Source: Henricia sp. BOLD:AAB3569 (lineage: Eukaryota > Echinodermata > Asteroidea > Spinulosida > Echinasteridae). From it: 64,000 nucleotides of DNA. Location: assembly GCA_037783545.1 (NCBI GenBank), contig JBBELK010000009.1, forward strand, positions 310,001 to 374,000, in the 5' to 3' direction. Below are positions 37,188 through 43,640 of the stretch, in pieces; position 1 is the first letter of the stretch; the number at the start of each line of letters is the position of its first letter. The notes under the pieces were generated by a model, which saw only the letters and a program-made list of their open reading frames with translations, had not been told where the DNA came from and ran no database searches. The position numbers and the translations under genes are program-made.

Positions 37188-38577
37188 GTATGTCATTTAC
37201 AACAACATATGCCTTTAACCTAGGTGGATAATACAGGGTAGATAAAACAATTAAAAAAACCAAGCCGAGATGACTAAAGTAGGGCACATATGAATCAAAG
37301 GGAGATTTCCTCTGTTAGGGTTGAATCTCCTCCTTAAAATGACACCCTGATCATGTCATTATGTTTCCGGTTGACTGAGAATCAACCAGTGTTATGCAAG
37401 GGTCTAGTTATAGTCCGGGAGCCCAGCAGGATTTCATCATAATTTTGAGTGCAAAAGGTTTGAAGTGTGGGATTGGTAGAAGTAGCTGGGACATCTCCCA
37501 AACGGGCTTTCTTAAGTGTCCCGGGTGGTGCGTTGGGAGGGGGCAGCCCCCTAAAGTCACCCAAAAATTCGGTTTCATCATAATTGAGAGTGCAAGCCCA
37601 ATTTTAGCACGGATCGTAAGGCCAACCTACACTGATTGATAATTCGTTACTTAAGAAAGATATATTTGGTGCGTTAGCCACTTAAGAAAGCGGTTAATTA
37701 GCGCTAATTAGACGTTTAATCATAATTCTGAGTGCAAAGACAAAACGTATGTGTATGTGCACCCTACACACGGCTGAACACAAAAATGCCACTTAAGAAA
37801 ATGTTTGGTGGTGCGAACCCTACTTAAGAAAGGGTCAAAGGTTAATAAGGTCAAAGGTCACCAATATTCAAAATACGAAGAGCAAGTTTCTAGCGTGTTT
37901 GGACTGAAAGTTTATGACAAATCAATCACTGATTAACCATTTAAGAACAAAATATGTGGTGCTAAGTCTAATTAAGAAGGCCTTCAATTAGCACTAATTA
38001 CACCTTTAATCATAATTACGAGTGCATCAATAAAACAAGTGCCAATGTGTTCCTATAACCATACAAAAGCAAAATCACCCGCTTAAGAAAATGTTCGGTG
38101 GTGCGAACCCTGCTTAAGAACGCCTGGAAATCCTAAAGCTCAGGGTCACGTGTAACAGTAAGCCCCGCCCCCTGCGTCTTCCCATTCCCGCCCTGCACCC
38201 CGGCGCACTGCATCCCGGGCGCCCTGCACTGCCGACCCCACCTCCTGGACCGCATGACCCAGGCGCCATGGTCCCCGGTTCCCTCTCCCGGTCCTGATCT
38301 CCACACCAGGCACCCCCCCCCCCCCCCCCCCACCTTCTCCCCCAGCCGGTCATGATACTTGCAAGTTGCGGATATGTGCTGTTGTCAAACACGATTGCCT
38401 AAAACATATGCCAAATTGAAGAATAATGTCGAGGTGGTTACTGTGTATAAAAGCTAGGAGGGCACCAGCGCCCCCTCCCCCTTTCCCGCCGAGCTACATC
38501 AGACCGATCACCCAACCCGACGATTTGGGCTTGTCAGGAGTTGAAGTTCCACTTTCACGAAAATCCGCCACCACAAC

Positions 38578-38603
38578 CCCCCCCCCCCCCCCCCCCCCCC
38601 CCC
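38578..38603. repeat. Poly(C) tract
   Basis: About 25 Cs in a row in the left arm, with another of about 20 at 38311-38332. The right-arm equivalent of the 38578 run (near 41790-41800) is only a short G run, so tract length varies between arms. Confidence 0.95.
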
Positions 38604-39288
38604 CGCCCCCACCCCAACCCCACCCCGATCAAACCAGCCTACGCGCCACTAACTGTTTTCCTGATAAATAATTTGTAACCTAGGAACAGCATATCACGTG
38701 TATTAAGTGCGTAAGGACAACTTATTTAGCCAATTTATTAGTATCAATTAGAGTAATGCCCACAAGTTCAACACTTGATTCACAAACAAGCTAATGAACC
38801 AAATTCCACAAATTAAGAAGAAATATTCCCAGTGGCGGATCCAGCCTCATTAAAATACAAGAATACGACGGATTTCAGGGGATTATTTCCGTCCGTTTTG
38901 TGTTTAGGAACTGGTTAAAGATCGGTAATAATAGCCACCTTTGGTAATGGAGTGCGAATATTTATGTTTGTGTTGATTTTGGTTAACCTATCCGGACCGG
39001 AACCAAGTCAGACCACATACTGCGAGCTTCCAGCCTAACCCTCCGACGACTCCAGATCTGTAGCACCCGGTCACACCGAGTTGCCTTAATACAAATATAT
39101 AGCCCATGCTTCTGACACTATCCGCTATGCGGTCCTGCCCAAGGACTTTTCCAGGATCCAAGCCCTCACCAAGTCATCTAGTAACCCCGCCTAGGACCAC
39201 CCGCCGGCCGTAAACAGATCAGGAAATTCCACAAAATCACTTATACCCGCGCGCTCTCCGCCCTGAGCCGGACAATACCAATCCCTTT

Positions 39289-39483
39289 ATGTCCCAGCCA
39301 GCCTTGATTAGCCAAACCGTGGCCAACCTCAGCCTGCAGCGACCGCTCTCACGCACAGAAACCAAAGTTCTGTCCCTCGGCATGAACTTTGCTATCCCGC
39401 TTAAGACAATCCTGGTCGAGGACATAATTCAGTCAACAGAACTGGCCTTACAACACTTCAGCAAGACGACTGTATATAGATGA
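39289..39483 (+). pseudogene. Penelope-like element RT ORF fragment (left arm)
   Basis: 65-codon frame including VANLSLQRPLSRTETKVLSL and GMNFAIPLKTILVEDIIQ. The pattern NLS-x-LS-x2-E-x-KVLSLGMNFA, followed by an EDII..TE.AL helix, resembles the N-terminal region upstream of the RT core in Penelope-like retroelement proteins. The frame stops at TAG soon after LSKTT-like wording; no RT catalytic motifs follow. The match to the inverted copy in the other arm, with mostly in-frame differences (one 12-bp indel), supports former coding. The family call is from memory and not searched. Confidence 0.55.
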
Positions 39484-39654
39484 TGATGATAATGGCATCT
39501 TATATAGACCAAGATAACTGCCATCTTGTCCACCCCCACCTATATACCACTCTCTCTGGAAGGACCCCACACCAGCCACAGAACGCAATATGTCCAGTCA
39601 ATTGACGACTCTCCACCAGCCAGGACAAGATGGCAGTAACCGTAGTCTGCTTTG

Positions 39655-39755
39655 TCCATGTCTACGGGAAGGATGGGTATGGATCGGTCTTGGTGTAGGG
39701 CTTGGAGTGCTGACAGTTCTTGCCTTGAGTACTTGGTTGATTTGGAGTCGGACAT
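39655..39755 (-). pseudogene. Penelope-like RT fragment (SRQELSAL...ILPVD)
   Basis: Minus-strand frame reading SRQELSALQALHQDRSIPIL followed by PVDMDKA. This resembles the S-x-x-E-x-x-AL-x-x-L-x-x-D-x-SI-x-ILPADKG segment that leads into RT motif 1 of Penelope-like elements. It fits as the next part of the fragment at 40849-41079, separated by an insertion of about 1.1 kb. The reading frame then runs into the palindrome centre. Confidence 0.5.
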
Positions 39756-39769
39756 AATGTGTAAAGCGC

Positions 39770-40300
39770 CATGAGTATCTTGCAGGATAGATAATGTGCG
39801 CTATATGTTGTTGTTCGTCCTTCGAAATCGAAGATGATGACCATGGCATCAGTTGGATGGTGAGCTGTTGCGATGAGTCCGGAGATGGCTGGTGAGGCCA
39901 ATCCGGGCAAGGAAACCTCTCCCACAGGTGGGGCAGAAGTGGGTAGGCGCTGTGCTTTATATAGGAGCCGGTGACTCTGGCTTTGCGCATCTGGCGTTTC
40001 TGCTCGGCATGCTGGGAACGGCGCTCCTCCGCTCTCTGGGCTCCTGTTGTGATAGCACTGCGCAGCCCCGTCCTCATACTATGAAGGCGAGCAGAGCGAT
40101 CCTAAAGAGGGCTACTCGGTCACCCATAAGGCTGCCGGACTCCACTGCTGCCTCGGTCCAGTGAAGAACGACCACATGTCCTGAGCCGCCTGTGTGCAGG
40201 TTCGCGACTACAGCTCCCAGTGTATCCACACCTACTGCTTCGCCGTTTCCCCATCGCCACAGGACTTGAAGATCGACTGATGGTGATGTCATGACATGCG
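39770..40300 (-). pseudogene. LINE ORF2 C-terminal relic with C2H2 knuckle
   Basis: On the minus strand, 39935-39849 encodes CPTCGRGFLARIGLTSHLRT, then HRNSSPSN and stop. This is the C2H2-like tail (C-x2-C...H-x3-H) that ends ORF2 of many non-LTR retrotransposons in marine invertebrates. Upstream, AEERRSQHAEQKRQMRKAR in another frame fits the basic helix that usually precedes it, so a frameshift or stop lies between. Downstream is the 3' tail AAGGACGAACAACAACATAT. It is 5'-truncated and no RT domain is present. Confidence 0.65.
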
Positions 40301-40900
40301 CGTGACTTGGATTAAAGTGACGGAGACTTGCGCTGCATCGGCCTCACTCTCTCGTCCTGATACGCCGGGTCCAGTGGCAAGACAAAGTCGAGACGGCTGG
40401 GGGCGAACCGGGATGCAGGAGTTGCCGGAAGGTTACAAGTATGCCATACAACCGCCTTGGGGGCTCCACTGCCGATTTGTTGTCGGGGTTTACTCCCTTA
40501 GCCTATGATATTCCCAAGACATCCACAAGGCAGTGGAGCTATTTGACCCATAGCTGGGGCGGTGGTTGACATGGCACCAGGACGTATCCACACGTCGGTG
40601 GGCCTGCACACCATGTCTCTGGGGCCCACTGCTTCTCTGAGATCCCGTACAGATTCAGCCGGAGGCCGCAAGGTCCCCAGTTACCGTGTGTTGCCACGAG
40701 GAGGCACTGCAGGAGTCTTGGTGGTGGATAGGCTATGTACTGGCAGGGGAGACTTACACGCTCGGCTCCCTTTTCGCCCCGAACGAGGCTAGCCAGCGGC
40801 AGCAGCTGAGGGTAGAAAGCGGGGTGTGCAATACTATCTACAACAACACTACTGCACTAGACACTTCACATCACCCTGTGGCAAGGCCACTAACACATAA
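40300..40900. other. Central spacer of the inverted duplication, unassigned
   Basis: GC-richer than the surroundings and without a recognised domain. It lies directly upstream (minus strand) of the LINE tail, so it may be more of the same LINE, too decayed to identify. The plus-strand ORFs here (60-84 codons) lack any family signature. Confidence 0.5.
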
Positions 40901-41079
40901 GATGCCATTAGATCATCATCATCTACGGTCGTCTTGCTGAGGTGTTGTAAGGCCAGTTCTGTTTGCTGAATTATGTCCTCGACCGGGATGGCAAAGTTCA
41001 TGCCGAGGGACAGAACTTTAGTTTCTGTGCGTGAGAGCGGTCGCTGCAGGCTGAGCTTGACCACGGTTTGGCTAATCAA
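40849..41079 (-). pseudogene. Penelope-like element RT ORF fragment (right arm)
   Basis: Same protein segment as 39289-39483 but from the right arm: VVKLSLQRPLSRTETKVLSL then NFAIPVEDIIQQTELALQHL and DDLMASYVLVALPQG. It runs further than the left copy and breaks where the central LINE-like block begins. The continuation seems to resume at about 39755 on the same strand. Confidence 0.55.
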
Positions 41080-43028
41080 GGCTGGCTGGGACCTGAAGGG
41101 CTTGGTATTGTACGGACGTTAGGATATAGATCAGTTCTGTTGTCCGGCTCAGGGCGGACTCGGGCGCGTGGGTACGAGTGATTTTGTGACATTTCCTGAT
41201 CTGTTTACGGCCGGCGGTTGGTCCACGGCGTGGTTACTAAATGACTTGGTGAGGGCTTGGATCCTGGAAAAGTGGCGGATAGTGTCAGAAGCATGGGCTA
41301 TCTCTCCTTTTTTTAGGGCAGCTCGGTGTGACCGGGTGCTAGAGATCTGGAGTCGTCGGGAGGGTTAGGCTGGAAGCTCGCAGTATGTGGTCTGACTTGT
41401 GGTTCCGGTCCGGATAGGTTAACCAAAATCAACACAAACATAAAAATTCGCACTCCATTACCAAAGGTGGCTAATATTACCGATCTTTAACCAGTTCCTA
41501 AACACAAAACAGACGGAAATAACCCCCTGAAATTCATCGTATTCCTGTATTTTAATGAGGCTAGATCCGTCACTGGGAATAATTATTCCTAATTTGTGGA
41601 ATTTTGTTCATTAGCTTGTTTGTGAATCAAGTGTTGAACTTGTTGGCGCGCATTACTCTAATTGATACCAATAAATTGGCTAAATAAGTTGTCCTTACGT
41701 ACTTGATACACGTGATATGCTGTTCTTAGGTTACAAATTATTTATCTGCAAATCGGAAACAGTTAGTGGCGCGTAGGCTGGTTTGGTCGGGGTGGGGGGG
41801 ATTTTCATGAAAGCGGAACTTCAACTCCTGACAAGCCCACTCAGATCGTCGGGTTGGGTGATCGGTCTGATGTAGCTCAGCGGGGAAGGGGAGGGGGCGC
41901 TGGTGCCCTCCTTTTATACACCGTAACCACCTCGACATTATTCTTCAATTTGGCATATGTATTAGGCAATCGTGTTTGACAACAGCACATATCCGTAACT
42001 TGCAGGTATCATAACCGGCTGGGGGAGGGATGGGGGAGGGGGATGGGGGGGGAGGAGGGGGGGGAGGGGGGGGGGGGGGGGGAGGGGGGGGGGGGAGGGG
42101 GGGAGGGGGGGGGGGGGTGTGTGATTGGTACGTGTGGGGATCAGGACCGGGAGAGGGAACCGGGGACCATGGCGCCTGGGTCATGCGGTCCAGGAGGTGG
42201 GGTCGGCAGTGCAGGGCGCCCGGGATGCAGTGCGCCGGGGTGCAGGGCGGGAATGGGAAGACGCAGGGGGCGGGGCTTACTGTTACACGTGACCCTGACC
42301 TTCAAGATTTCCAGGCGTTCTTAAGCAGGGTTCGCACCACCAAACATTTTCTTAAGCGGGTGATTTTGCTTTTGTATGGTTATAGGAACACATTGGCACT
42401 TGTTTTATTGATGCACTCGTAATTATGATTAAAGGTGTAATTAGTGCTAATTGAAGGCCTTCTTAATTAGACTTAGCACCACATATCTTGTTCTTAAATG
42501 GTTAATCAGTGATTGATTTGTCATAAACTTTTAATCCAAACACGCTAGAAACTTGCTCTTCGTATTTTGAATATTGGTGACCTTTGACCTAATTAACCTT
42601 TGACCCTTTCTTAAGTAGGGTTCGCACCACCAGAAATTTTCTTAAGTGGCATTTTTGTGTTCAGCCGTGTGTAGGGTGCACATAGACATACGTTTTGTCT
42701 TTGCACTCAGAATTATGATTAAACGTCTAATTAGCGCTAATTAACCGCTTTCTTAAGTGGCTAATGCACCAAATATATCTTTCTTAAGTAACGAATTATC
42801 AATCAGTGTAGGTTGGCCTTACGATCCGTGCTAAAATTGGGCTTGCACTCTCAATTATGATGAAACCGAATTTTTGGGTGACTTTAGGGGGCTGCCCCCT
42901 CCCAACGCACCACCCGGGACACTTAAGAAAGCCCGTTTGGGAGATGTCCCAGCTACTTCTACCAATCCCACACTTCAAACCTTTTGCACTCAAAATTATG
43001 ATGAAATCCTGCTGGGCTCCCGGACTAT
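40901..43028 (-). mobile_element. Right arm of the 5.6-kb inverted duplication
   Basis: Reverse complement of the left arm. Its outer end is ...GCTGGGCTCCCGGACTAT at 43028. The C-rich tract of the left arm is matched by a longer, expanded G-rich tract at 42022-42117. The flanking bases TTA just outside both TAGTCC ends could be a 3-bp target duplication, but this is weak. Glycine- and proline-rich ORFs in this arm are low-complexity artefacts. Confidence 0.9.
42022..42117. repeat. Poly(G)-rich tract
   Basis: Almost pure G with scattered A and T on the plus strand, about 95 bp. The left-arm equivalent (near 38311-38332) is a much shorter C run, so this tract has expanded. It gives misleading glycine and proline ORFs. 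G-quadruplex formation is likely. Confidence 0.95.
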
Positions 43029-43059
43029 TAGGGATTCGCGCCACTTTCTTTAATGCATA

Positions 43060-43640
43060 GCCTGTTTTTTGACGACCAAATATTCATTGGTAACCGAGGA
43101 CGCCTCATAAATTAACATCCCGATAAAAATGTTGGTGAGGGGAAAACCTGCATTTTCTTAAACAGAACACATTCAGGCCTACATGAGAATGCAGCGATTT
43201 TTTGTTGAGTCCAAGGTCTGGGCGAAGGGGAACTGGTCGATCATCCGAGAACATTAATGCAATTCAGCAGGCCCTGCAGCAGGGAGAACGCAGCAGTCGT
43301 GAGACAACATCAACTGCTTTCTGGTGATCTTCCGAGGCGTCTTAGGTTTTGCCAATGGATACCCTGATCGTCTAAACAGGCTATGCCATAGTTTAGGCCA
43401 CTGCATGGTGGACGCCATTAGAGAAATTGGCGCAAATCCCAAACTAGACCTTTGCATTGATCGCTGCTCAGTCAACCGAAAACATAATGACATGATGAGG
43501 GTGTCATTTTAAAGAGGAGATTCCACCCTAACAGATAATATATCCCCCTTTGATTCATATATGCCCTACTTTAGTCACAATTAGCAATAATATCTCGGTG
43601 TCGTATAGCTTTAAGTTTACTTTATTGTCAACTTGAGATG
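43060..43640. other. No supported gene; flank resumes after the inverted duplication
   Basis: GAGGAGATTCCACCCTAACAG near 43513 and AAAGGGAGATTTCCTCTGTTAGG near 37298 look like an inverted pair outside the 5.6-kb structure. CATATGTGCCCTACTTTAGTC-like words also occur on both sides (near 37280 and 43556). The duplication may therefore extend beyond the arms or sit inside an older inverted element. Confidence 0.45.

Follow-up and report, generated by a model that had tools for sequence, protein, structure and literature searches.

A probable non-autonomous DNA transposon of a Henricia sea star, with long inverted arms and a putative Penelope-like passenger

A stretch of 64,000 nucleotides from the sea star Henricia sp. 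BOLD:AAB3569 (assembly GCA_037783545.1, contig JBBELK010000009.1, positions 310,001 to 374,000 of the forward strand), hereafter the window, contains at positions 37411-43027 a complete 5617-bp element with long inverted arms, termini TAGTCCGGGAGCCCAG / CTGGGCTCCCGGACTA, and a TTA duplicated on both flanks (37408-37410 and 43028-43030, i.e. TTA/TAGTCC...GGACTA/TTA). We propose, with a probability of about 0.8, that it is a non-autonomous terminal inverted repeat (TIR) DNA transposon, moved in trans by a putative transposase making 3-bp duplications, that carries sequence of a Penelope-like element (PLE) as a passenger, and which gained its second arm through inverted doubling of its left half. 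Movement would be of the cut-and-paste type. The limits of the element, set by comparison of its arms and by termini shared with other copies, lie on each side one base inside those of the 5.6-kb inverted duplication described in an earlier note on this DNA, and this duplication is real.

Copies of the element in the genome

The source genome (740.7 Mb, 2104 contigs) was searched for arms and ends. With the left arm as query, 41 matches were obtained (40 of 287 candidates scored). The terminal pattern, with at most 3 mismatches over 42 bp, was present 178 times (88 + 90), against 0 for the reversed-pattern control, so that at most about 89 two-ended copies are kept this well. Pairing was analysed on the 100 exact ends listed out of these 178. 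Seventy-four of them form 37 convergent +/- pairs within 15 kb, spanning 459-9122 bp (median 5546) and mostly 5.0-6.2 kb; three neighbour pairs are on the same strand, none is divergent, and for the other 26 ends no convergent partner is listed. The inverted arrangement reported in the earlier note is thus found elsewhere in the genome.

Besides the window, we examined 26 regions, picked from good arm matches and from the listed pairs or ends, so that the sample is not random. Both ends were found in 26 copies; the copy with one end only (L022) was dropped before any count. In all 26 two-ended copies the ends are inverted, and the boundary TAGTCCGGGAGCCC is exact in the copies examined, except in L013, which has damaged ends. 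The flanking 3 bp are identical in 22 of the 26; 14 of these 22 duplications are made of A/T only, and five are TTA or TAA. An empty site was provided by L016, which lies in a tandem array: uninterrupted units have a single AGA, and the element is flanked by AGA/AGA. Precise inverted termini common to dispersed copies, a duplication of fixed length and an empty site are features expected of a TIR transposon. The core separating the arms of the window copy (39504-40896) is covered in 17 of the 19 other copies compared (partly in L023, not at all in L013), and the copies therefore represent one family rather than separate captures.

Two copies contain arm sequence only, L033 (459 bp, flanked by ATA/ATA) and L034 (971 bp, with no matching duplication). 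They may have moved as short copies or shrunk in place, and are not used here as proof of movement without PLE sequence. Over the 503 bp of flanking sequence compared, the two sides of L034 (C708:350300-352300) match perfectly as reverse complements (TAT/ATA, no direct duplication), and this locus may be a giant palindrome born from a hairpin, or an assembly fold-back. Inverted flanks (at least 50 bp within 450 bp) were found at 5 of 26 sites, versus 6 of 200 random window points. This is suggestive of a preference for palindromic targets, which we do not claim because L013 and L033 have a common flanking repeat (judged by eye) and L034 stands apart. The five sites do not include that of the window copy, which has an inverted flank 415-550 bp to its right and is placed in or beside a second inverted repeat of about 140 bp (37271-37409 / 43442-43577, 85% complementary). 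On C674, a copy of the element hosts a nested 3.8-kb insertion (L032:519-4362) with 26-bp perfect inverted ends (CGCATTACGAATTTCTCCCATTTAAA), of which two open reading frames (ORFs) were tested, with no Pfam family above cut-off.

Anatomy of the arms and their Penelope-like sequence

The two arms of 2.1 kb had been described as near-identical. This holds for the outer 0.92 kb: the left (37411-38331, + strand) and right (42107-43027, - strand) outer arms are 98% complementary over 922 nt (37410-38331 / 42107-43028). It does not hold for the inner arms (38313-39503, +, and 40897-42052, -), which have diverged from each other, with ungapped blocks 90-94% complementary (up to 39503 and from 40897), or 82.8% as a single gapped alignment. 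The spaced words that had been noticed in the outer arms are far above expectation. Each 900-bp arm has four CATAATTNTGAGTGCAAA words (at most 3 mismatches), where 100 dinucleotide shuffles have 0.01 on average, and eight CTTAAGAAA-type words (at most 1 mismatch, both strands), where the shuffles have 0.31. These arrayed subterminal words are putative transposase-binding sites.

Both arms also hold one protein segment, NLSLQRPLSRTETKVLSLGM, reading inward (39259-39468, +, and 40921-41118, -), and the two gene pieces are convergent, tail to tail. As the earlier note had proposed, the segment resembles the region of PLEs upstream of the reverse transcriptase (RT): in an alignment of 76 columns, it shows 53% identity to residues 146-220 of an open frame of 847 codons that this genome contains (L043). 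This frame codes for RVT_1 (E 8.9e-11) followed by GIY-YIG (E 3.9e-6), an order that we take to be the Penelope-like arrangement; its protein had no match to a PDB chain at E 0.001. Relative to this frame, the fragment covers residues 146-220 in the left arm and 153-223 in the right arm. Weaker pieces correspond to residues 49-112 (38987-39182, left arm) and, in the core, to residues 282-316 (39511-39619, +; E 0.07) and 227-270 (39648-39764, -; E 0.18). The window copy thus holds only PLE fragments from upstream of the RT, with no RT + GIY-YIG ORF, and a Pfam scan of 10 of the 46 listed ORFs of the region gave no family above cut-off and no transposase domain.

One-armed relatives carrying a Penelope-like gene

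PLE copies were located by a search with the arm peptide and another with the RT piece of a relative. Three of them, on C862 (L042), C308 (L045) and C920 (L047), start with the terminus of the window element (20, 20 and 19 of its first 20 bases, respectively) and have, ahead of a degenerate PLE gene, an outer arm whose main blocks are 87-93% like those of the window element. Each has one arm, and no second arm was seen in the stretches examined. C920 is complete: extending this stretch by 5.5 kb revealed an inverted TAGTCCGGGAGCCCAGCAGG that can be aligned, over 55 bp, with the left end of this copy, the copy is flanked by ACA/ACA, and PLE matches from residues 159 to 799, with gaps, lie inside the inverted ends. 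C920 is thus a DNA-transposon unit with an internal PLE, and the PLE in the transposon is best read as a passenger. A Tc1-type element (Pfam HTH_Tnp_Tc3_2) interrupts this copy, whose right part includes about 740 bp of a high-copy repeat. The proposal that one-armed copies are the 5' ends of PLEs was dropped once the right end of C920 was located downstream. In C308, similarity is lost within the PLE gene.

Ends of the ancestral type, 11 by pattern, led to C201, C19 and C517, where we found arm sequence or only its first 92 bp; the 2.8-4.8 kb examined gave neither a PLE match nor a right end. Three of these ends, on the same strand of C19 (601279, 606169 and 610733), are 4.6-4.9 kb apart and probably belong to a tandem segmental repeat.

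Other PLEs of the genome (L043, L046) have no TAGTCC terminus in the stretches examined. In L046 (C109:286300-292800), an inverted copy of its own 3' part precedes the PLE (463 and 254 bp, 88-91%). Divergent PLE pairs were seen at C71:399422-400163, C175:1095713-1097276, C666:241424-243350 and C61:204167-209690, some with long open frames of up to 864 aa; they are apparently independent of the transposon.

Outer and inner arms have different histories

Arm statistics were computed on 20 copies of 4.5-6.1 kb for the outer arm, 16 of which had both inner arms long enough. Between the left and right consensus sequences, there is no difference in the outermost 450 bp, 7 (1 near-fixed) at 451-900, and 56 (31 near-fixed) at 901-2100, the bin beyond 2100 being omitted as past the arm end. 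Outer arms were 97.89% identical within an element, versus 97.55% for permuted partners, the within-element value being reached in 0 of 5000 permutations. For inner arms, the corresponding values were 93.43% and 93.41%, the former being reached in 1524 of 5000 permutations, and the own partner was the best match in 1 of 16 elements. The switch between homogenised and diverged sequence comes near the C-run at 38313-38331 (seen by eye), in which the left inner arm starts (a second C-run lies at 38577-38626), and near the G-rich tract at 42021-42117 on the right. The outer ~0.9 kb is homogenised within single elements, probably by repair copying one end from the other.

Trees were built for both arm parts and rooted at midpoint. 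The outer-arm tree has 36 rows, corresponding to both arms of 15 of the 20 copies, L044 and five others; L016, L018, L024, L026 and L027 were omitted on size grounds only. Its 31 two-armed rows are split (100/99) from C201, C517, C920, C862 and C308, copies with only a single arm seen, and the two arms of L017 are sisters (97/87), as are those of L028 (95/90). The inner-arm tree (38 rows) separates left arms from right arms (96/98), with the arms of L044 falling each on its own side, and the divergence of the inner arms therefore predates the spread of the present copies. Same-side identity between copies is 96-98% on average, and the mean identity of inner left and right arms is 93.4%, i.e. 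about 6.6% of difference. L044 itself (C62:2101700-2110300) is a more diverged two-armed copy, split by a long interspersed element (LINE) with Exo_endo_phos and RVT_1.

Proposed history and alternative explanations

The following scenario would account for this anatomy. An element with ends of about 55 bp and a single ~0.9-kb word-rich left subterminal region would have acquired a PLE; we include this step because the PLE is common to three relatives, one of them complete. In one lineage, the left half, together with the 5' part of the PLE gene, would then have been doubled in inverted orientation, replacing the short right end and creating the 2.1-kb arms, as anatomy and trees suggest. The palindrome would have spread, with 178 well-kept ends remaining, and its outer ~0.9 kb, not its inner part, would continue to be homogenised element by element.

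Several observations weigh against this scenario. No transposase carrying the ends of the element was found in the genome searches, and four of the 26 copies (L013, L025, L026 and L034) have no matching duplication. A right end was located in only one of the three PLE-bearing relatives (C920): C862 has none within 4.3 kb beyond its PLE, nor C308 in the ~7.3 kb following its PLE similarity. C920 and C308 are not direct parents, because they miss most of the inner arm that separates, in the window copy, the outer arm from the PLE. C862 has much of it and, behind its PLE, also an old copy of part of this arm in inverted orientation, so that some inverted structure may predate the doubling of the arm; in the inner-arm tree, moreover, it groups with the right arms. 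The trees being rooted at midpoint, anatomy counts as much as they do for the direction, from one-armed to two-armed. Finally, the homogenisation effect is small, the own partner being the best match for the outer arm in 4 of 20 elements.

The position of C862 and the separation of inner arms differing by some 6.6% would also be expected if two separate one-armed copies, already diverged, had joined in opposite orientation into an inverted dimer of the DNA transposon. However, the position of C862 is compatible with a root on its own branch, and the PLE fragments stop near the same residue in both arms (220 and 223), for which a single inverted duplication is simpler; we hold such a junction to be unlikely, though a serious contender. 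Much less credible is the inverted dimer considered in the earlier note, in which a PLE would have integrated tail to tail by target-primed reverse transcription, the outer arms being PLE 5' ends. The three PLE-bearing relatives do start at the TAGTCC terminus upstream of the PLE gene, the fragments in the arms do converge, and other PLEs of the genome have inverted pieces (L046, and the divergent neighbours on C71, C175 and C666). Yet ends are precise and the 3-bp duplication is uniform (22/26), PLEs such as L043 and L046 exist without this terminus in the stretches examined, and on the 3' side of C920 there is an inverted TAGTCC end and a matching 3-bp duplication, which places its PLE inside ~55-bp inverted ends. 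We also find it quite improbable that the one-armed relatives represent a hybrid of class I and class II elements, in which a still active PLE gene between DNA-transposon ends would be spread by reverse transcription and transposase, the palindrome family being its decay product.

The foldback shape proposed in the earlier note, with inverted repeats and captured retroelement pieces, is borne out, and not the affiliation to the TU elements of sea urchins. Affiliation to TU-type or Mutator-type foldbacks would fit the long arms with word-rich outer, inner and middle domains, and the mitochondrial code of the host is that of echinoderms and flatworms (COX1 is as expected with AAA read as asparagine). 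The target duplication of TU is 8 bp. Duplications are 3 bp here, against 8-10 bp for Tetris (PMC4079207), and such an affiliation is very improbable. As for an assembly artefact due to a foldback read, which the inverted flanks of L034 (100% over the 503 bp compared) might evoke, the 37 convergent pairs among the 100 listed ends, and the different flanks with 3-bp duplications that agree in 22 of the 26 copies examined, make it barely conceivable.

Affiliation and comparison with known systems

The element was compared with known superfamilies. CACTA/EnSpm elements have 3-bp duplications, arrayed subterminal words and CACTA/CACTG termini. The first two traits are found here, but the termini begin with TAGTCC. 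CACTA-type transposases (PF02992) gave 23 matches in the genome, none on a contig with a listed end (100 of the 178, plus the 11 of ancestral type). When a partner was sought with the right subterminal part of C920, an unrelated high-copy repeat dominated the matches (40 of 4443 candidates scored). PF07592, which we take to be the model of the Zator ISAzo13-type transposase, had no match in the genome, and matched in no control genome either. Like the element, Zator has a 3-bp duplication (PMC10045372).

PIF/Harbinger duplications are TWA, unlike the present ones, in which TTA or TAA accounts for 5 of 22. Being 3 bp long and mostly not TWA, the duplications argue against Harbinger and Mutator-like foldbacks. 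In PMC3627910 and PMC10045372, the PIF/Harbinger duplication is given as 2-3 bp or 0-4 bp.

With PLEs, the element shares fragments of the RT + GIY-YIG gene, in arms and core. PLE ends and duplications are variable, unlike the exact ends and the 3-bp duplications (22/26) found here, as in a DNA transposon. In shape, the element is like foldback transposons (Drosophila FB/Tetris, sea urchin TU), judged from Tetris as described in PMC4079207: very long arms built of domains, a variable middle, no transposase found, and rearranged or deleted copies. The element differs from Tetris by its 3-bp rather than 8-10-bp duplication, by the PLE sequence in its inner arm, and by listed pairs mostly of 5.0-6.2 kb.

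The kind of element is therefore already known, a non-autonomous transposon with long arms. Elongation of inverted repeats has already been proposed as an origin of foldbacks, which would arise from varied transposon lineages by loss of the transposase and repeat elongation (cited in PMC4079207). What sets this element apart is PLE sequence in its arms, a relative with short ends, and a history that differs between outer and inner arms. Literature searches for PLEs with inverted repeats or foldbacks yielded no recognisable PLE between inverted ends, which is weak evidence, subscription journals being thinly covered. Without intermediates, it is difficult to follow how a transposon with short ends becomes a foldback with arms of kilobase length. 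In the present case, a single genome holds a short-ended relative (~55-bp ends, PLE passenger), long-armed copies, and a more diverged long-armed copy. Since outer but not inner arms are homogenised, the homogenisation step can be tested, and the inner arm provides an internal control.

Other features

Within the core, the earlier note had seen the C2H2 tail of a LINE. A C2H2 motif, CPTCGRGFLARIGLTSHLRTH, is present at 39852-39956 on the - strand, with a Pfam zf-C2H2 match (E=0.004) under the curated cut-off; it is presumed to belong to a LINE tail.

Outside the element family, C955:7592-41374 gave three COX1 matches of equal score, 16,221 bp apart, one other match being on C2104. This spacing suggests that the mitochondrial genome was assembled as a concatemer on C955.

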